From assembly GCA_947367055.1 (NCBI GenBank), contig CANBCI010000002.1, positions 204,005 through 268,004 on the forward strand: a stretch of DNA of 64,000 bases. The letters are read 5' to 3'. The DNA comes from an uncultured Alphaproteobacteria bacterium. GTDB lineage: Bacteria; Pseudomonadota; Alphaproteobacteria; Rs-D84. Both the position numbers and the translations under genes were made by a program. Shown here in pieces: positions 5,030-61,729 of the stretch (its first letter is position 1; each line of letters begins with the position of its first letter). The notes under the pieces are model-generated. The model did not search any database and was not told where the DNA came from. It saw nothing but the letters and a program-made list of their open reading frames with translations.

Positions 5030-6676
5030 TTATTTTTGGTTTTCGCCTTCGTCTTTGTCGCGGTTTATAATCAGGTTTCCAACCGCGCCGCCAATAACGC
5101 CCACGCCGCCGACAATCGCACCGGTTGTCGCCTTCTTTTTTGCGGTGCTTTTTTGTTCTGCGAATTCGGCGGCATCGGTGCTGTCCGTATCCATCAGAGC
5201 CCGTGATACGGATGTGTACGCCCCACCCGTCCGCCCCAGGCTTTCATTGTCGTATAACCCAGAATTTGCCGCATCCAATACTAATTCGGATTCTATGCCC
5301 GGTGTCATTTCCAATGCGGCCTTGGTTTCCTGAAGGCGCTTGGCTAAATTAATATATTCCGCTTTTTGTTGCATTAATGTATTGGCCGCCGGCAGCTCTA
5401 TTTTTTCCGTGCCGCCGCGAATATTGCGCCCCGCACCAAAATCACATCGAAATGTTTCAATATATGCACGCATGTCGGATTCGGCGGCCGCATCGGCATT
5501 TTGTTCGGCCCGCCCCTGCATCAGCATTTGCCCGCCGACGCCCGCGGCACCAATCGCCAGCGCCCCCAGCAGTCTGTTTCCAACGGATTGTTCCCGCGCC
5601 TTGGCGCGTTCGTATTGTTTTTGCAATACTGCGTATTCGGTCGCATCGGATAGAAAATAGAAAAATTCCTTGTCGGACTGTTCATCGATATTTTTTGCGC
5701 GCTCGGTTAAATCTTGTTCACGGCGTTGTAATTCTTGTTCGCTTATATCGGGCGTTTCAGTCACCTGAATTGTTTGAACAGTATTTGTGTTTGCTGACAG
5801 CATATTTTGCATGTTTTTCCAAATTAAACTTGGGGCTACCGCCAGTACGTTGCCGCGTCGGGTGTCCTTGAAACTATCGCGACCGCGGCTGACGATACCA
5901 TATATGGTGTTATTTGCAAAATACGGGCCGCCGGAATTTCCCTGCATTGCATCACAGGTATTGCTGATGATTTTATCATCCGCATATATTCCTGTAAGTT
6001 TGCAGTCCGTGTGCGCCTTTAATTTATACTCCATGTCACAGTCATCGGGATTATCTCCCTTGAAGCATTGTATTGTTTCATCTGTCCAATCCATAAGCAG
6101 TGGTATACCATTTGCCTTGGTGTCTTGCGCGCTTGGCACTATCAGGTTCATAAAGTTTGTTTTGGATAGGCCGTGTTGCTTTGCGTTTTTCTTAAAAATT
6201 TGTTTTAGCTTTTTTATTTCATCATCCTTGAGTATTCGCATATAGCCAAAGCCGGCATTGGTGACGGTCAATATCTTGGATTGGCTGGATACCGTAAACG
6301 TGTTATTGCTGTAAAAATTCGAATCTGTGACGCGTAGCAATGCCCAGTCGTCTGATGCAAAGTCATGGCCATATTGTTCCAGTTTAATTTGCGTTTGTCG
6401 GCCGTCGGATAGTTTGATTGTGAATAATTCGCCAATATGTTTGTTGTTGTCAAAGTCTGTGTCTTCTGTAATGCAGTGACGCGCAGTTAGAATTATATCC
6501 TTTGCGACGTACTGGGCGGTACAGGTGCCATGTTCCCGAGTAAAAAAATACACGATTTGGTTATATGGATAAGAATTCCAATCAACATATTTTCGTTCGT
6601 CAATTGAACCGACGCCACCATGTGCGGTTATGCAATGGGTGGCAAACAGTATGGCCAATAAGTATTTATAAAACAT
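5030..6676 (-). CDS. Secreted S1 (trypsin-like) serine protease with long C-terminal extension
   Basis: Signal peptide; TARHC (His), DDWALLRV (Asp), GNSGGPYF (Ser); Gly-rich hydrophobic stretches near the C-terminus. Confidence 0.85.
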   Translation of the reverse strand: MFYKYLLAILFATHCITAHGGVGSIDERKYVDWNSYPYNQIVYFFTREHGTCTAQYVAKDIILTARHCITEDTDFDNNKHIGELFTIKLSDGRQTQIKLEQYGHDFASDDWALLRVTDSNFYSNNTFTVSSQSKILTVTNAGFGYMRILKDDEIKKLKQIFKKNAKQHGLSKTNFMNLIVPSAQDTKANGIPLLMDWTDETIQCFKGDNPDDCDMEYKLKAHTDCKLTGIYADDKIISNTCDAMQGNSGGPYFANNTIYGIVSRGRDSFKDTRRGNVLAVAPSLIWKNMQNMLSANTNTVQTIQVTETPDISEQELQRREQDLTERAKNIDEQSDKEFFYFLSDATEYAVLQKQYERAKAREQSVGNRLLGALAIGAAGVGGQMLMQGRAEQNADAAAESDMRAYIETFRCDFGAGRNIRGGTEKIELPAANTLMQQKAEYINLAKRLQETKAALEMTPGIESELVLDAANSGLYDNESLGRTGGAYTSVSRALMDTDSTDAAEFAEQKSTAKKKATTGAIVGGVGVIGGAVGNLIINRDKDEGENQK

Positions 6677-6689
6677 TTTTTCTCCTATT

Positions 6690-6714
6690 AAAAACCACCT
6701 AAAAATTCAGGTGG
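6690..6714 (-). terminator. Intrinsic terminator of leader RNA A, just upstream of the protease start
   Basis: Minus strand CCACCTgaatttttAGGTGGTTTTT. Confidence 0.75.
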
Positions 6715-6865
6715 CAGGAGGTTCGAAACTATCCATTGTGAAATAGCGTCGGTTATTTTATATTCACCGACCCTCCTGCATACTACAGGAGATTTTTTGC
6801 CAGTTTTCTGGCGACACAATGGTGGGTTTCGACGCCCCAATGCGACAACTCATCGCATCAGTTTT
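6690..6865 (-). ncRNA. Structured leader RNA A (candidate new family, member 1)
   Basis: P1 TCGAAAC/GTTTCGA, P2 CCATTGTG/CACAATGG, P3 GCCAG/CTGGC, segments CTCCTG:CAGGAG, P5 GTCGGT/ACCGAC, repeated CCTCCTG, terminator; same order as the 46043 and 60757 elements. Confidence 0.65.
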
Positions 6866-16630: not shown

Positions 16631-16712
16631 GTGTCACCTCTTGGTATAACCGTTTTAATTATTGCCCGAAATAAAGAAATAGTCAAATAAAAACCGTCCC
16701 CGCAGGGACGGT

Positions 16713-17052
16713 GTGCAGATGCGCGATAAGCCGGATTCTGTTCTGCCCATGGCCCGTGTTTCACCACCACCCATGGGTAGCGAGCATAATTAATCTGCAT
16801 ACCATGTTGCCATGATACGTCAAGCCTTCTACCCGTTCCTAAACTGGGACCCGTTAACGGAACCTATTTGAAGTTGCTGCGCGTAGAGATTGCCCGTTTC
16901 ACTCGAATTAAATCGTTTCGTCACTGTTGCTCTAATCGTCGGGTTGCCCCGCCCGGCCGTTAGCCGGTACGCCGTCCCATGCAGTCCGGACTTTCCTCCG
17001 CATCCCTGTTACCGGGCGCGGCTATGCTCTGCCCATCTTGCGGACTATATCC
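16713..17052 (-). ncRNA. rnpB: RNase P RNA, bacterial class A
   Basis: Minus strand GAGGAAAGTCCGGACT...; 3' part ACAGAATCCGGCTTATCG; followed by GC hairpin and T-run at 16694-16711. Confidence 0.93.
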
Positions 17053-17145: not shown

Positions 17146-18471
17146 ATGTCCAATTTTTTACGCAATTGTATGCGGTGTTTGGTGTTGCCTGTCATATTCT
17201 GTGGAACATCGGGTGCATTCGCGGCGGGCTATACGTGCCCGACATATAAAAAATACACATCGTGCAGTTCGGGATATTATCTAAATGGTACTGCGGCGGG
17301 AAATTCATGTGACGCGTGTCCGTCTGGGTGCACATGTGCGGGCGGAACCGCCGCCCCGGTATGTGGGGTGACATGCGCGGAGGCGACATATTGGAACGGC
17401 AGTTCATGCGTCACATGTATTGCCGGATATGCATGCCCCGGTTTTTCCAATATTTCAAACCCTGTCAATGGCCAGGGTGCCAACCCGTGTAGTGCGGCAG
17501 ACCAATATCAGGATGCAACTGGGCAAACGACATGCAAAACCGTTTCGGCCGGATATTACAAGGTTGATAACACTTCACAGGCCCAATGCACCGGAAACAC
17601 ATACTGCGTGGGTGGCCGAAAAATAGCTTGCCCGGATACAACCGCATCTGCAAGAACAGATTTCCCCGCATCATATTATAATCCGGTGATATCATCTTTC
17701 GGCCTGGTTGGGGGCAACGGCAGAACGGATATTTCGCAATGTCGCGGGTTGACTTGGTATACAAATGACCGCGGAAAATTTTATGAAACCACTACATATA
17801 ACCCTGAATCTCAAAAGTACGATATTGTCCTTAATTGGGGGTATTCACAAGTAAAGCCGGGCTACTACCTGACCAGCAAGGCTGGATGTGGTGCCTTTGC
17901 GTATTATACAGAGGCAAAAGATTGCCCAACCGGGGCGTATTATTGCCCGGGTAAAAGCGATGTTGTATGCAATGCATCAAATCAGGCGACGGTTCACACA
18001 ACAAACTTTGGTTTGGAAACATGTCCGAACGGATATGATTATAATACGGATGCCGGAAAATCCGATATTTCACAGTGCAGGATTAAATGCCCTGCCGGAG
18101 AATACATTGCGGCGGCAAATGACGGCACGTGTTCTGATGTGGGGCCCGGATACTGGGCGGCGGAATCCACAACCGGATATGGCGACATCGGAATGCGTAA
18201 TGCCTGCCCGGTTGGGTTGACCACATATGGTCGGGGCGCCGGCGCGGACGAGGCCGCCGATTGCGGGCATATATTCTATGTCGGGTCAAACAGACGTCTG
18301 TTTCTGCGCAGTGAAAAGAAAACAACCCCGTCATTAAACGTAAAGGTTGGTGATCAGGTATTCTATGGCAACATGCGTACAAAACCGTTTGCCAAGGGAA
18401 ACATGCTGCATGTGATGTTGAACGGCACGGATTATTCGGTCTATGATGACGCCGATGCCGCGTCGGAATAA
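17146..18471 (+). CDS. Secreted Cys-rich repeat protein
   Basis: Signal peptide; GYTCPTYKKYTSCSSGYYLNGTAAGNSCDACPSGCTCAGGTAAPVCG; repeated CP-G-Y motifs. Confidence 0.8.
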   Translation: MSNFLRNCMRCLVLPVIFCGTSGAFAAGYTCPTYKKYTSCSSGYYLNGTAAGNSCDACPSGCTCAGGTAAPVCGVTCAEATYWNGSSCVTCIAGYACPGFSNISNPVNGQGANPCSAADQYQDATGQTTCKTVSAGYYKVDNTSQAQCTGNTYCVGGRKIACPDTTASARTDFPASYYNPVISSFGLVGGNGRTDISQCRGLTWYTNDRGKFYETTTYNPESQKYDIVLNWGYSQVKPGYYLTSKAGCGAFAYYTEAKDCPTGAYYCPGKSDVVCNASNQATVHTTNFGLETCPNGYDYNTDAGKSDISQCRIKCPAGEYIAAANDGTCSDVGPGYWAAESTTGYGDIGMRNACPVGLTTYGRGAGADEAADCGHIFYVGSNRRLFLRSEKKTTPSLNVKVGDQVFYGNMRTKPFAKGNMLHVMLNGTDYSVYDDADAASE

Positions 18472-46012: not shown

Positions 46013-46041
46013 TTGAAAAAATATGGCGATTGATGTATAAT
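46013..46041 (+). promoter_or_regulatory. Sigma70-like promoter of leader RNA B
   Basis: TTGAAA 46013-46018, N17, TATAAT 46036-46041. Confidence 0.8.
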
Positions 46042-46042
46042 G

Positions 46043-46251
46043 TAACAGTTGACGAGCATTTCGTCGATGAGGTGTGAGAACCTCTTCAGAAGCGTCATAA
46101 TGTTTTGGTAAGGGCGCACACACGGCGCTGTTTTTATTATGACGAAAAATTCTCCTGACTTTGGTCAGGAGGGTTTGCGAAATAACAAATACGCAACACA
46201 ATTCTTCTGATTGTTCTCAACCTCCTGACCACCGAATATTTGGTGGTTTTT
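46043..46251 (+). ncRNA. Structured leader RNA B (candidate new family, member 2)
   Basis: P1 TGAGAAC/GTTCTCA, P2 TCAGAAG/CTTCTGA, P3 CGTCATAATG/TATTATGACG, CTCCTG:CAGGAG, P5 TTGCG/CGCAA, repeated CCTCCTG, terminator CCACC...GGTGGTTTTT. Confidence 0.7.
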
Positions 46252-46277
46252 GTAAAAAAAACAAGGGGGATATATTC

Positions 46278-46868
46278 ATGAGGGGAAAAATCGCCGCAAT
46301 AATAAGTTTCTTCCTATTATTGCCATCCGGTTCATATGCCGTTTCGATCAGTAAATTGTGCGCAGAATCTGCCACATGTGGTGATGGGACGGGCTCATTT
46401 TGCATGAGTGTAAATCTGGCCAGATGCAAAACTTCCACATTTAAATATTATGACGGCCAATACGGCGTTGAATCTTGCACCAGTTGTGCGTCAGGCGAAA
46501 GCTTAACAGAACTCACAATTGACATTCCTGGATGCACCAATACGGTTAAATATAATGATTGTTGCAGTGGATGCGACACAAGTTGCACAAGCGACACAAC
46601 ATGGTCGGCGTACAAAGAGGGATATGAATTCAAGGAAAACCGCAAATGTGAATGCAACACGTGTGTGTTAAGCAACGTATATAGATGTGCCGCGGGATAT
46701 TATGGTATTGCATCGCTTTCGGCCACAGGTTGTGAAAGATGTCCCGCCAATGGATCCAGTGCGGCAGGGTCCCTTGTGATAACACATTGTTATCAGCCGG
46801 CCGGCGCTACATTATCCGAGACGAACGGAACCTATACGTTTACGTCCTCTTGCTCATATACAAAATAA
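46278..46868 (+). CDS. Secreted Cys-rich protein, paralogue of the 61082 gene
   Basis: Signal peptide; VYRCAAGYYG...GCERCPANGSSAAGSLVITHCYQPAGATLSETNGTYTFTSSCSYTK. Confidence 0.8.
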   Translation: MRGKIAAIISFFLLLPSGSYAVSISKLCAESATCGDGTGSFCMSVNLARCKTSTFKYYDGQYGVESCTSCASGESLTELTIDIPGCTNTVKYNDCCSGCDTSCTSDTTWSAYKEGYEFKENRKCECNTCVLSNVYRCAAGYYGIASLSATGCERCPANGSSAAGSLVITHCYQPAGATLSETNGTYTFTSSCSYTK

Positions 46869-48654: not shown

Positions 48655-48724
48655 TTATAACTTAAAAACTTGCAATTTCCAGCAGGAATATTTATAATTG
48701 ACATGCCGTGCAAACGGTGATGAT

Positions 48725-49005
48725 TCTGAATCCGTTGTGAAATAATCATTTTGGACCCGGGGGCGGTACCCGGCACCTCCACCAATAAGACATACGGGGG
48801 TGTAACAGATTCGACAGATGACGAAAGACAAACTGGGTGAATCCGACATGGCGTCGTTAAAAGCCGATAAAAAATGAATGCGAACGATAACGTTCCGCTT
48901 GCAATGGCTGCCTAATATGGCGTTGGGTATGGCTGACGATTGCCCGCCTGCCCGTTTTAGCAATTGCGGGGCCGCCGGGTGCCTGGCACCAGAAACCCGG
49001 CATGT
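48725..49005 (+). ncRNA. ssrA: tmRNA, circularly permuted two-piece type
   Basis: Acceptor piece ...CCGGGGGCGGTACCCGG CACCTCC ACCA (ends 48784) precedes GGGGGTG (48796) TAACAGATTCGACAG; tag GCGAACGATAACGTTCCGCTTGCAATGGCTGCCTAA = ANDNVPLAMAA* (48880-48915). Confidence 0.9.
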
Positions 49006-54737: not shown

Positions 54738-57700
54738 ATGGAAAAAAAGCGCTATTTCCTGGGTTTCTTGGCATCTTTATTTATGATATTTATATCCGGC
54801 GGCGTACGGGCCGACGGGTATTTATGCCCCGATTATAAAAAGTATACCAGTTGTTCTGCGGGTTATTATATGACCCTTGACGGATCTTATAACGGTACGC
54901 CGACCGAAAGAAACGAGTGCACTGCATGTCCGGCGGGATGTTCCTGCGCGGGCGGAACGGCGGCGCCGGTCTGTGGTGTAACGGTCACATTGGATTATAA
55001 CGGCGGCACCGGTCAACTGGAAGATACGGAACATTGTTCCGGCTCGACCTGTACATGCCCGAACAATGGCGAATGCGACCTGCCGCGCTGGACGGTGGCA
55101 GCCAATCCGCTGGCACGACCGGGATACATATTCATGGGATGGGCAACCAGCCCGACCGCCACCACCGGCAGCAATTCCATGACATTTACGGCATCTACCA
55201 CAATATACGCCGCATGGTCGCCATGTAACAGTAACCAAGACCAGGGATGCAGTTGCGCATCCGGGACACATCCGGTGAACGGTGTTTGTACAGATTGCAC
55301 CGTACAGTGTACCGGCGATTACCCATTGGGACAATATAACTCTTGCGAAATAAATGGTGGCGATGCGGAAACACCCGAACAAATTTGTAAACGCGAATGC
55401 ACCGTCGCGGATGTTGCGCATTCCTTGACCGTGACCGGCACGGTCGGAATGACCGAAGACGCGGCGACGGTCTGTGCCGCATTAACCTGCGAAGACGGGT
55501 ACACATTGGTTGGCACGCAGTGCGTCCAGACCATAGAATGTACGGCAGGCCTAATGTATGACGGGGTCAACATGGTTGACTGTCCGGCGGGCAAATATTG
55601 CCCGGGGGTCGGAACAACTACTATCGGTGTGGCCGGGTGTGACGCGACATGCCCGAACGGATACACATCTGACACTGGCGCAAATGCGGAAACACAATGT
55701 TATCAGGAATGCACAACGACATGCGAAACCGGAACCTGCCCTGAAAACAGCACATCATGCACATGGGTTGAGGGCACCGTAGTAAACGGCATCCAATACT
55801 ATGGCGACACCACGTGCCAGGTTGCCGAATCCGACAGGTATTGCCAATTAAACACGTTGTTCTGTGATATGACGTACTATTCCAACAACAAAGCCAGTTG
55901 CGATTTATGCTCTGCAATACCGGGATACGAAGGGGTCTTTACACAATCACCCGCAAACAACAGCAGTGGCCCCAATGTATGCTTTACAACATGTTTTGAA
56001 CCATGCACACGTCCGCAATGTCCGGAAAATGCCACATGCGAATATGATGAATCGCAAAATTCAACCGGTGGCAAATATTATCCGGATACCGAAACATGCC
56101 GTATCGTAAACGAAGCCACATGCGACATGACGGTAACATGTAATGACGGATATACATATGATTCGGCAACAAACACGTGTAATCCGATTGTCTATGCGAT
56201 AACACTGGACGCAAACGGCGGAACGCCTGCAATACAGACAATATATCAACATCCAAAGGGTTGGTTCAGTGATGCGGACGCAACGCGCGCCATATCGGTC
56301 GCCCCGGTTCCGACACGCACTGATTGGGAATTCTTGGGATACTATACGGAACCTGTGGACGGAAATCTGGTTATTTCCGACAACCTGGTGTTGCCTGCAA
56401 ATACCACCTTTAATGCGGACACAACCCTGTATGCCCATTGGACCGAAGAAATCTTTGAATGTACGGAACGCAAAACGTATGACGGGTTGGATTGCCCGGT
56501 CGGAATGTATTGCCCGGGCGTCAATGTGATTGCGGGTACTGAAACCAGCAATACAAACGGTTGTCAACGCACATGTCCGGTTGACCCGCTTGGCGGATAT
56601 ATCCAGTCGGAATCCGGTTCCATGTTTATTGACGATTGCCGCACGACGCGCATGAATCAAAAATTGCCGGACGGCACCGGATTCGGTGATCAAACGTGCC
56701 ACTACTTTGCCGGTTCCGCATCTTATGACCGCAGTTGTACAACAAATGTCATATCGTGTAATGGCGGATATTATCTGCTGAACAATACCGACATCACATG
56801 TTCTGTTGTGGCCAAGGGGGCGTTCAGCCCGGACGGCGACACACATGTAACCTTGTGCAGTTCATTGGCCGGCGCCGATGCAACCGTAACAACGGCCGAT
56901 ACCGGTGCGGCGGACGCCACCGCATGCTATAACACATGCGCACAACTTACCATTGCACATGGTGTATTGACGCCGAAAGTAAATGAAGTTCATTTTGACG
57001 GTACATCAATTGCGGCATGTGAATACGATACGATATGCGATGCCGGATATATGGTTGACCCGGCCAACCCGTATTCATGCACGCTGTGCACCCAAGGCAG
57101 CTATTGCCCGGGCAACAGCCGCGTAGAATCTTGTCCGGCGACACACCCGTATTCGGATTATGGCACCGCAGATGAAGGTAAATGTTATGCCGATTGCGCG
57201 CTTGCCACAAATGCGGCATCCATGACGGGTCATGCGTATAAGGACGGCACATCTGACTGCCGCGTGGATTTGTGTGTACGCGGTGCATACCTGGATAATG
57301 CCAAGGGCCAGTGCCTAACATGCCAGGCGGGCCGTGTATGTCCGGGCGACAACACAATAGCAAGATGTCCGGTGAACACCTATTGCCCGGCGGGCGCATT
57401 TGAAACCACCGCATGTCCGACGGAATTCCCGAACTCTGCCGAGGCAACCAAGGCGGAAAGCGACTGCTATCGCATGTGCATCACATCGGACATTGAAAAC
57501 GCAACCGCTGTTTCCGGAACCATAACCCAGGGCGGTGTCAACACCTGTGCGGCGACGGCATGCGTGGCCGGGACATATGTGACGCCAGACGGCGAATGCG
57601 GTGTTTGCCCGGAAAATCACATCTGCACCGGTGGCAGTGCAGCCCCGGTCGCATGTCCGACAACACATCCGAATGCGCCGGAGGGCTCATTCCAAACAGA

Positions 57701-58550
57701 ACAATGCTATGTCACATGCGAAGACTACAGATTGGATTACGGCTGGGCGCATATTGTGAACGGAACGGAACAATATCCGACCGAATGCCAGTATACCGGC
57801 GAATCCGATACGGGTAATCCGTGTGAAATTGTCGACGGCACCAAGTGTGTTGAAAAGCACTGCAACCCAGATTATGAACTGATTGGCGGCAGATGCGAAC
57901 CATGCGATCGCGACAATGCGATACTGTACGCCGACGGCGCGAACTGCTCGATTACACTCTGCATGACCGGATTCCACCCGACACCGGATGGCCGCGCCTG
58001 CGTTGAAAATGTTCAGGAATGTCCGGCCGCAGACGCAATCTATGCGGAACAGGTATGGGATTTCAACCTGAAGGCATTCGGCAAATGCACAATCAAGGAA
58101 TGCATTGACGGATACCATTTGACATCAAATGCATGCGTTCTGGACGAACGTCCCTGCACCATTGAACGTGGTGGTGTAAAAATAGGCAGCGGTGTCCAGC
58201 AATGGAACGAAGCCGCCCAGAAGTGGGGTGAATGCGTCGCCGAAACATGCACGGCAGGATATACAAACGACCCGTCGTTAACCAATGAGCATGGTGTTGA
58301 ATGCGGCGAATGCAAAAACCGTTTCAGCGTATTGGGCGAAGTGGCGGTAAGTTCATATCTGCCGGGCGGGAACTGCGAAATTGCATCCTGCATGTATCAG
58401 GGCGAGTTGTACAACCTTGATACGGCATCTAATGAATGTGTGCCGATTTGCGACATAAACGGGTATTCCGACGAAACCGGCAGCATGATTTGGGATCCTT
58501 CACGCAAGAAATGCGTAAGAACCTGTAACGAAGGCTACGTAATGTGGTAA
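54738..58550 (+). CDS. Very large secreted Cys-rich protein with InlB-type B-repeats and CPAGxYCPG repeats
   Basis: 1270 aa, signal peptide; VTLDYNGGTG...YIFMGWAT...TTIYAAW and ITLDANGGTP...WEFLGYYT...TTLYAHW; repeated CPxGxYCPG. Confidence 0.85.
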   Translation: MEKKRYFLGFLASLFMIFISGGVRADGYLCPDYKKYTSCSAGYYMTLDGSYNGTPTERNECTACPAGCSCAGGTAAPVCGVTVTLDYNGGTGQLEDTEHCSGSTCTCPNNGECDLPRWTVAANPLARPGYIFMGWATSPTATTGSNSMTFTASTTIYAAWSPCNSNQDQGCSCASGTHPVNGVCTDCTVQCTGDYPLGQYNSCEINGGDAETPEQICKRECTVADVAHSLTVTGTVGMTEDAATVCAALTCEDGYTLVGTQCVQTIECTAGLMYDGVNMVDCPAGKYCPGVGTTTIGVAGCDATCPNGYTSDTGANAETQCYQECTTTCETGTCPENSTSCTWVEGTVVNGIQYYGDTTCQVAESDRYCQLNTLFCDMTYYSNNKASCDLCSAIPGYEGVFTQSPANNSSGPNVCFTTCFEPCTRPQCPENATCEYDESQNSTGGKYYPDTETCRIVNEATCDMTVTCNDGYTYDSATNTCNPIVYAITLDANGGTPAIQTIYQHPKGWFSDADATRAISVAPVPTRTDWEFLGYYTEPVDGNLVISDNLVLPANTTFNADTTLYAHWTEEIFECTERKTYDGLDCPVGMYCPGVNVIAGTETSNTNGCQRTCPVDPLGGYIQSESGSMFIDDCRTTRMNQKLPDGTGFGDQTCHYFAGSASYDRSCTTNVISCNGGYYLLNNTDITCSVVAKGAFSPDGDTHVTLCSSLAGADATVTTADTGAADATACYNTCAQLTIAHGVLTPKVNEVHFDGTSIAACEYDTICDAGYMVDPANPYSCTLCTQGSYCPGNSRVESCPATHPYSDYGTADEGKCYADCALATNAASMTGHAYKDGTSDCRVDLCVRGAYLDNAKGQCLTCQAGRVCPGDNTIARCPVNTYCPAGAFETTACPTEFPNSAEATKAESDCYRMCITSDIENATAVSGTITQGGVNTCAATACVAGTYVTPDGECGVCPENHICTGGSAAPVACPTTHPNAPEGSFQTEQCYVTCEDYRLDYGWAHIVNGTEQYPTECQYTGESDTGNPCEIVDGTKCVEKHCNPDYELIGGRCEPCDRDNAILYADGANCSITLCMTGFHPTPDGRACVENVQECPAADAIYAEQVWDFNLKAFGKCTIKECIDGYHLTSNACVLDERPCTIERGGVKIGSGVQQWNEAAQKWGECVAETCTAGYTNDPSLTNEHGVECGECKNRFSVLGEVAVSSYLPGGNCEIASCMYQGELYNLDTASNECVPICDINGYSDETGSMIWDPSRKKCVRTCNEGYVMW

Positions 58551-60756: not shown

Positions 60757-60933
60757 ACTTGTTCTGAAATGAACAACGAACATAGTTAGTAGATTGGCTT
60801 AGAATACCAAGATATTACACGACTGCAAATTATGTCCCGATTACTGGTCGGGATGCCGTTGCTCGTAAGACAATGGGGTCAATAATATCTGACATTCTAA
60901 CTCCCGACCGCTAACTTAAGCGGTTTGTTTTTT
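60757..60933 (+). ncRNA. Structured leader RNA C (candidate new family, member 3)
   Basis: P1 TTAGAAT/ATTCTAA, P2 AGATATTA/TAATATCT, TCCCGA:TCGGGA, P5 CCGTTG/CAATGG, repeated TCCCGA, terminator CCGCT...AGCGGTTTGTTTTTT. Confidence 0.65.
60785..60818 (+). repeat. 34-bp direct repeat, copy 1
   Basis: GTTAGTAGATTGGCTTAGAATACCAAGATATTAC. Confidence 0.95.
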
Positions 60934-60953
60934 GGAACACATTTTTATAAATG

Positions 60954-60987
60954 GTTAGTAGATTGGCTTAGAATACCAAGATATTAC
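60954..60987 (+). repeat. 34-bp direct repeat, copy 2
   Basis: Identical to 60785-60818, 169 bp downstream, in the 5' UTR of the 61082 gene. Confidence 0.95.
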
Positions 60988-61081: not shown

Positions 61082-61729
61082 ATGTTAAAAAAATTATCCG
61101 TCATTATTTTATGCCAATTTGTTACATCAACATGGGCGCTGACGGCAGATGTGCTGCCAGTAGATCCATTAAAAAGCACATGCCAACTTCAATACGGCGT
61201 AAGTGACGGCAGTGCCTGTCAATTATCAATGACAACCGCAACGGATTGCCAAACAAAAACCTGCAAGGCATACAGTTGCACAAATTCATGTATATGCGCG
61301 CCAAATGCAACCTATTGTTCATCACTTGACGGCACCAGTTCCGATTGTCCAAACACTTTTTGCCCCGAAGGCACCAGCAACTGGGCTGCGCCGGAAATTG
61401 GCGCCGCATATCAGGAACGCACGACATACACCCTGAATAAAATAACCTGCAAATGTACAACAAGAACAGAGTACAGATGCGCGGTCGGATACTATGACGC
61501 GAACACAACAACATTCGGAACAAATGCGTCCGATTGCACAAAATGTCCGGCACCGACCGATAACATATCCAGCGCTAAATTCGGCGCCGGTGCCACATCC
61601 AGCGCGGGCGCCAAGGGAATAACTTCGTGTTATATCCCAATGGCAACGGGAAACTTACTGTCGGATATTACGCTGACGGACGAAAGTGGCACATATTCTT
61701 TTACCGCCGACTGTCATTATACGGAATAG
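61082..61729 (+). CDS. Secreted Cys-rich protein, paralogue of the 46278 gene
   Basis: Signal peptide; EYRCAVGYYD...CTKCPAPTD...GITSCYIPMATGNLLSDITLTDESGTYSFTADCHYTE. Confidence 0.8.
   Translation: MLKKLSVIILCQFVTSTWALTADVLPVDPLKSTCQLQYGVSDGSACQLSMTTATDCQTKTCKAYSCTNSCICAPNATYCSSLDGTSSDCPNTFCPEGTSNWAAPEIGAAYQERTTYTLNKITCKCTTRTEYRCAVGYYDANTTTFGTNASDCTKCPAPTDNISSAKFGAGATSSAGAKGITSCYIPMATGNLLSDITLTDESGTYSFTADCHYTE

Follow-up and report, generated by a model that had tools for sequence, protein, structure and literature searches.

A previously uncatalogued, pseudoknotted leader RNA family of Alphaproteobacteria and its probable role in transcription attenuation

Introduction

What kind of element occupies the intergenic region 5′ of a gene for a secreted Cys-rich protein in an uncultured alphaproteobacterium, and does it govern that gene? 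The stretch of DNA analysed here (the window) is 64,000 nucleotides long. The original prediction read in it a promoter, a 5′ hairpin, two long-range helices (P1 and P2), three short segments of which the second could pair with either the first or the third, and a terminator; the arrangement was held to recur at two more sites of the window, always 5′ of secreted-protein genes, and to be an attenuator, a riboswitch-like leader or a stand-alone sRNA. We examined the anatomy, covariation, distribution and gene context of this element, and find that it is a previously uncatalogued structured RNA family.

Results

Anatomy of the leader in the window

The best copy, member A, lies on the plus strand, and a check of the sequence placed its promoter, 5′ hairpin, P1, P2, segments 1 to 3 and terminator exactly where they had been claimed. 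The promoter, TTGAAA-N17-TATAAT by sequence (46013-46041), comprises a −35 box TTGAAA at 46013-46018 and a −10 box TATAAT at 46036-46041, and is followed by a 5′ hairpin, GTTGACGA-GCATT-TCGTCGAT (46048-46068), that is predicted by folding and found at the same place in nearly all copies. P1 joins TGAGAAC (46075-46081) to GTTCTCA (46213-46219), and P2 joins TCAGAAG (46086-46092) to CTTCTGA (46204-46210). Between their strands stand three hairpins: P3 (46093-46144), supported by folding and covariation, which pairs CGTCATAAT (46093-46101) with ATTATGACG (46136-46144) beneath a variable tip; P4 (46152-46172), which pairs segment 1, CTCCTG (46152-46157), with segment 2, CAGGAGG (46166-46172); and P5 (46173-46197), with the conserved A/U-rich loop AAATAACAAATA. 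The extended segment 2, GGTCAGGAGG (46163-46172), is complementary over 10 bp to segment 3, CCTCCTGACC (46221-46230; core as first noted, 46221-46227), the final 3 nt of which lie inside the 5′ arm of the intrinsic terminator, ACCACC/GGTGGT plus a U run (46228-46251, from sequence and fold). Gene A (46278-46868), with its Shine-Dalgarno sequence AAGGGGG at 46263-46269, encodes a secreted Cys-rich protein of 196 aa, for which no Pfam family was matched.

Additionally, two local hairpins and a crossing pair had been overlooked, as had the non-secreted targets and the spread of the family. Hairpin HA (46069-46084) pairs GAGG (46069-46072) with CCTC (46081-46084) and holds the P1 5′ strand in its loop, HB (46199-46213) pairs CAAT (46199-46202) with ATTG (46210-46213) around the P2 3′ strand as its loop, and the crossing pair Q joins U46073 to A46198 in a four-way junction.

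The fold energy of member A was −82.7 kcal/mol, compared with −50.2 kcal/mol in shuffled sequences (z −7.5). Its minimum-energy nested fold contains P4 and the terminator only, without the segment 2:3 helix, which is a pseudoknot and as such cannot be weighed fairly by nested-fold programs.

The claimed recurrence at two more sites of the window stood clearly for member B and with reservation for member C. Member B (whole leader 6686-6861, minus strand; model match 6716-6838) precedes the gene for a secreted trypsin-like protein (5030-6676, minus strand), folds at z −8.0 against shuffles and scores 81 bits (E 1e-17) with the covariance model R2 described below. Member C (60766-60940, plus strand; model match 60794-60906), upstream of a secreted-protein gene at 61082, keeps the helices but has diverged: its conserved P5 loop is lost, its R2 score is low (20.7 bits, E 0.004), and its fold (z −3.8) is weaker than that of A or B. 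Between the terminator of member C and the gene, at 60951-60983, stands a repeat of the 5′ half of this member (TTAGTAGATTGGCTTAGAATACCAAGATATTAC, 60785-60817), as if it were a decayed tandem copy, and the repeat could compete for the 3′ strands of P1 and P2 of member C.

Distribution and novelty of the family

A blastn search with member A retrieved six further copies from its own genome; a covariance model was built from the seven copies (R1), and a second one (R2) from 100 of the copies that R1 found. R1 gave 33 matches at E <0.01 in the 0.96 Mb genome of the window and matched 39 of 59 relatives, with 0 to 38 copies per genome; R2 gave 46 matches in the same genome at E <0.002, and matched 175 of 202 genomes of the window's order (18 of 24 genera; up to a set maximum of matches per genome) and 14 of 387 genomes in a class-wide sample. 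Two of the class-sample matches led to two other alphaproteobacterial orders, in which 120 of 158 and 32 of 43 genomes carried the leader, and a phylum sample of 299 genomes yielded one further match, L219, in a G+C-rich genome directly 5′ of a TraM-like gene. The models were briefly calibrated, so that their E-values are rough, and the counts cover the sampled genome sets; in genomes of 1-2 Mb, chance does not account for scores of 60-140 bits. The further members that the original prediction had proposed to seek with a covariance model thus exist in hundreds of alphaproteobacterial genomes.

In G663, G691, G775 and G776, genomes of other orders (L185, L220-L234), up to 20 or more copies occur per genome and precede genes for paralogous secreted and pilin-like proteins (GRSMIEMLGVLAIIGVLS...); in our reading, gene and leader expanded there together. 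Tandem leaders occur in the window's own genome (L024/L027, L036, L035/L038), each with its promoter and terminator and no intervening gene, and the genes behind them tend to be those of XRE-type regulators (MSGRPFKP...).

That no Rfam family is recognisable here was borne out at both gathering and loose thresholds. Searched with Rfam 15 at the gathering threshold, the window had no match at the leader positions, and searches of the same release with member A (E up to 10), with the Rhizobiales member L219 and with 13 diverse loci returned chance-level matches only. A search of a phage collection with the leader gave no match, and such an RNA was not described in the literature searched (subscription journals and preprints lay outside that search). 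Three known leader or regulatory RNAs were also considered and rejected as identities: Rfam RF00174, the cobalamin riboswitch, was not matched; no T-box family was matched in Rfam; and 6S RNA (RF00013) was likewise unmatched, its single rod with a central bubble differing from the branched and pseudoknotted fold found here.

Covariation defines a knotted core

Covariation was evaluated on an alignment of 100 relatives. Compensatory changes exceeded chance in every proposed helix, as expected of a conserved structured RNA. Over the whole pseudoknotted structure 96.1% of 3767 cells were paired, compared with just 36-53% for slid control structures, and 837 cells carried double changes, compared with 223 with shuffled partners, a test that kinship among the sequences inflates, although distant orders show these pairs again.

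P1 (columns 7-297 to 12-292) and P2 (columns 22-284 to 29-277) each formed standard pairs in 97-100 of the 100 sequences, most of their pairs occurring as 3-4 pair types; 99.8% of P1 cells were paired, with up to five pair types at one pair, and 99.7% of P2 cells, with both-sided changes at all six pairs. P4 was paired in 99.8% of cells, with double changes at four of its six pairs, and the P5 helix (213-219/260-265) in 90.7%. The best conserved loop is that of P5, an A/U-rich GAAUA...AAUA(A) in which the AAUA of columns 233-236 is 97-98% conserved and which a few copies cap with an extra stem. HA, HB, Q and the segment 2:3 helix were outside the model behind the alignment, yet they covary: HA columns 2-15 (GC 71, GU 16, AU 11, UA 2) were paired in 100 of 100 sequences and HB columns 268-290 (AU 85, UA 15) in 100%, Q (columns 5-266) was UA in 84, CG in 15 and UG in 1 of 100, and in the segment 2:3 helix columns 207-304 were AU in 67 and UA in 31, and columns 212-299 GC in 93 and UA in 3, besides others.

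Four nearly invariant residues, G4, C13, C267 and G291, converge on a single point of the HA/P1/HB/Q four-way junction. Because HA, P1, HB, P2 and Q hold in nearly every sequence at once, we infer that they form one knotted fold rather than alternatives to one another. For structural biology, a junction of four helices that loop-strand pseudoknots close in this way, and whose P1 and P2 sequences can be exchanged freely, would be an uncommon architecture. The helix P0 (GGGG with CCUCC) proposed by RNAalifold was rejected, as its U5/C5 column covaries with column 266 and not with column 298, which is A in 98%.

Segment 2 has two partners, one of which reaches into the terminator

The two-way pairing of segment 2 was upheld by complementarity and covariation, and is linked to the terminator. 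Segment 2 can pair with segment 1 in 99.8% and with segment 3 in 99.2% of cells; in 93 of 100 copies the latter helix extends past the six modelled columns to 9-11 contiguous bp, and in 82 of 95 it takes 2-6 nt of the terminator 5′ arm, the overlap expected between an antiterminator and a terminator. Across lineages the two strands change together, as GGAGG:CCTCC, GGAGT:ACTCC, GGAAG:CTTCC, CGGGGG:CCCCCG and GGGGAG:CTCCCC, so that segment 3 is CTTCC in other orders and CCCCCG or CTCCCC in Rhizobiales, with segment 2 matching each. The median duplex energy of segment 2:3 (−19.9 kcal/mol) and that of P4 (−13.3 kcal/mol) are not on the same footing, and would indicate a predicted stability of the former at least comparable with that of the P4 hairpin. 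The opening of P1 and P2 by this helix, as first proposed, is not required, inasmuch as P1, P2, HA, HB and Q hold together in nearly all sequences, and the switch is better read as P4 with a full terminator versus segment 2 with segment 3. Two other readings of segment 3 were set aside, namely an anti-Shine-Dalgarno role as its main function, since in other orders its sequence varies in step with segment 2, and a triple helix of segments 1, 2 and 3, since segment 3 is antiparallel-complementary like segment 1, as for a competing Watson-Crick strand.

A second complementarity concerns the two ends of the leader. In other orders (L187, L193, L197, L203) and in the Rhizobiales leaders the loop of the 5′ hairpin is complementary to that of the terminator or 3′ hairpin, with such pairs as TGATG:CATCA and TGATTA:TAATCA, both from other orders, or ACGC:GCGT; by reading, L190 has GGTGG:CCACC between its 5′ hairpin and terminator loops, and in Rhizobiales the pairing is invariant. 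A kissing contact is possible in these groups. In the window's own family the corresponding 5′ hairpin/terminator loop pairing was not significant against re-dealt partners (107 of 1000).

Gene context

The anatomy of 138 copies was surveyed, and a promoter was scored in 137 of them. The order promoter, leader, terminator, gene is fixed and on one strand, the placement expected of an attenuator. A promoter-like site lies upstream in 112 of 137 copies, compared with 19% of shuffles, and its −10 box precedes HA by a median of 33 nt (quartiles 33-34); 130 of the 138 have a terminator-like hairpin in the 35 nt that follow, and 124 of the 138 a start codon no more than 75 nt away (median 54, quartiles 50-59). 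Terminator and start codon are separated by a median of 32 nt, which leaves no room for a further promoter.

By a simple rule, a signal peptide was predicted in 87 of 118 downstream proteins, compared with 17 of 57 ORFs of the window taken as controls, among them three targets. The claim that the leaders stand 5′ of secreted-protein genes is thus right for about three quarters of those in the genus; the rest precede XRE-type helix-turn-helix proteins (PF01381), short cytosolic proteins and glycosyltransferase-like proteins. Targets in other orders include an outer-membrane beta-barrel protein (PF13505), lipoproteins and pilin-like proteins. Similar paralogous genes have the same leader, as expected if gene and leader duplicate together.

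The Rhizobiales form

A DNA search found relatives of the L219 leader on 377 PLSDB plasmid records, 214 from Agrobacterium and 76 from Rhizobium; on Rhizobiales plasmids and genomes the gene right behind the leader is typically traM. In annotated examples the leader lies between traH and traM, or 5′ of genes for helix-turn-helix regulators or small unnamed proteins, about 50-70 nt 5′ of the start codon; it precedes traM on an Agrobacterium pTi plasmid (L243) and a helix-turn-helix regulator gene on R. etli p42d (L244). R2 gave 17 matches on Rhizobiales plasmid loci (E 4.5e-9 to 0.007). Nearly all of the loci have a full HA and P1, HA being GCGG/CCGC in plasmids of the A. vitis type; HB is CTGT/ACAG, CCGT/ACGG or CCGA/TCGG, and Q is UA or CG, bar a few members with an additional base. 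RNAalifold recovered HA, HB, P3, P5 and segment 2:3 from a plain MAFFT alignment of these leaders. Because both forms have the helix order, the junction pairs and the segment logic in common, the likeness suggests, in our reading, common descent rather than convergence.

Most Rhizobiales leaders end in a conserved GCGG/CCGC 3′ hairpin without a U run, and a few have terminators. Control may be exerted at translation there, as this hairpin takes the place of the U-run terminator. Directly upstream of the traM leader, a gene of the ProQ/FinO family is present in two A. vitis plasmids (L251 and L252, 655-1089).

A third covariance model found the leader in 55 of 398 Rhizobiales genomes (33 genera), where the genes behind it encode TraM (PF09228), XRE proteins and PF10074 proteins, whose domain we take to be that called DUF2285. 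DUF2285 is the name used in work on the QseM antiactivator of ICEMlSym R7A (PMC10359603). The Rhizobiales leader, lying directly 5′ of traM and of genes for PF10074 (DUF2285-like) small proteins, is connected with the TraM/QseM antiactivators of conjugation of Ti plasmids and ICEMlSym R7A, and may bring RNA into the regulation of quorum-sensing-dependent plasmid transfer. RNA structure in traM or qseM leaders was not described in the literature searched (most subscription journals lay outside that search).

Discussion

The aligned sequences establish the helices, both pairings of segment 2 and the order of promoter, leader, terminator and gene. Based on these, we propose, with a probability of roughly 0.78, that each copy is a cis-acting transcription attenuator, a riboswitch-like leader of the gene behind it. 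RNA polymerase would start at the leader promoter and make the 5′ hairpin first, and HA, P1, HB, P2 and the crossing pair would next fold into a pseudoknotted four-way junction, with P3, P4 and P5 projecting from it and segment 2 initially caught by segment 1 in P4. If the emerging segment 3 stayed free, the terminator would be complete and transcription would stop; if instead segment 3 displaced segment 1 and paired with segment 2 over 9-11 bp, 2-6 nt would be removed from the terminator base and polymerase would read through into the gene. A cellular signal favouring one form of the core would tip this choice; here we infer the temporal exclusion of the two pairings, the direction of the switch and the existence of a signal. 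The leader would thereby probably decide the transcription of genes for surface proteins, DNA-binding regulators and inhibitors of plasmid transfer. Several findings speak against an attenuator: the nested minimum-energy fold of member A has P4 and the terminator only, tandem copies without a gene between them are unexplained by a simple leader, the mix of targets indicates no obvious ligand, and the Rhizobiales leaders mostly lack a U-run terminator.

What the core would sense is a more tentative matter. A class-wide riboswitch of old origin, in which one knotted aptamer senses just one ion or small molecule and governs both the surface-protein repertoire and the conjugation inhibitors, seems to us to fall a little short of even odds on the sequences considered here; if true, it would act in small-genome Alphaproteobacteria, with dozens of copies in less than 1 Mb, as well as on rhizobial and Agrobacterium plasmids. 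The mixed targets suggest a general cue, and one may speculate that it is an envelope or growth state rather than a biosynthetic end product. It is exceptional for a leader RNA to have tens of copies in a genome of less than 1 Mb, and such numbers imply a circuit of global control in bacteria usually credited with few regulators. As the family spans several alphaproteobacterial orders and has members in laboratory systems, its trigger is approachable by ordinary genetics.

Known leader RNAs offer partial parallels. The cobalamin riboswitch (RF00174) has a four-way junction at its core, and a loop of its aptamer pairs with a loop of the expression platform. The leader described here likewise has a four-way-junction core, and in the related orders its 5′ hairpin loop can pair with the terminator-hairpin loop, but the order of helices differs, the junction is closed by pseudoknots, and cobalamin-related genes are absent downstream. 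T-box leaders likewise combine a structured part with an antiterminator/terminator choice next to it and many copies per genome, whereas here no aminoacyl-tRNA synthetase or amino-acid genes were seen downstream, and the lineage differs.

A dedicated RNA-binding protein or a partner RNA, rather than a metabolite, might bind the leader. To this sub-case, a rival of the riboswitch form, we would give a real, if minority, chance. The very many functionally mixed targets per genome would suit a global regulator, the loop-loop complementarity in other orders could form a docking site, and the ProQ/FinO gene adjoining the traM leader in the two A. vitis plasmids is a conceivable partner. However, no candidate protein was found, and ProQ/FinO (PF04352) is absent from 16 genomes, the window's own and its relatives, by which it is rejected as a universal partner; sequence alone does not separate a protein or RNA partner from a small ligand.

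As between leader and stand-alone sRNA, both of which the original prediction had allowed, the cis-acting leader is favoured, less firmly so for the tandem copies. Cuckoo-type and alpha-r sRNAs of Alphaproteobacteria carry anti-Shine-Dalgarno loops. They resemble the present RNA in their several homologous copies, CCUCC motifs, and own promoter and terminator; here, in contrast, CCUCC is constrained by its pairing with segment 2, co-varies with it, and occupies a fixed cis site before genes. For the copies to be trans-acting sRNAs, the terminated RNA of about 200 nt would be the product, and segment 3 (CCUCC) would pair with the ribosome-binding sites of other mRNAs. This we consider unlikely. 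The promoter and terminator of nearly every copy, the similarity of CCUCC to an anti-Shine-Dalgarno motif and the tandem copies without intervening gene would suit it, as would the lower TraM level reported for an Agrobacterium hfq mutant (PMC4201532), an effect that would also fit control via the leader. Yet with the start codon fixed 50-59 nt past segment 3 and about 32 nt past the terminator, the gene needs readthrough from the leader promoter; furthermore, segment 3 follows the changes of segment 2 and in other lineages does not resemble an anti-Shine-Dalgarno sequence (CTTCC, CTCCCC), and the 16 genomes just mentioned lack a ProQ/FinO protein.

That the element is a mobile, insertion-like repeat with its own promoter and terminator and no regulatory role is very improbable: relatives do differ greatly in copy number (0 to 38 per genome), the 5′ half of member C recurs behind it and the Rhizobiales copies ride on plasmids, but pairing is kept near-perfectly while the sequence drifts, the distance and orientation to the start codon are constant, and similar paralogous genes share a leader, as joint duplication would produce. 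Chance palindromes, which A/T-rich intergenic regions rich in hairpins might supply, can be dismissed with near certainty in view of the fold z-scores, the dozens of homologous copies and the compensatory changes.

Two further genes of the window, 54738-58550 and 17146-18471, encode secreted Cys-rich proteins with a common mature start, GY-CP-YKKYTSCS, the first with Listeria-Bacteroides repeats (PF09479); they belong to the expanded surface-protein set, and a leader of this RNA family was not detected at either. The window also carries two landmark RNAs, a permuted alphaproteobacterial tmRNA gene (48666-49003) and a class A RNase P RNA (16711-17040).
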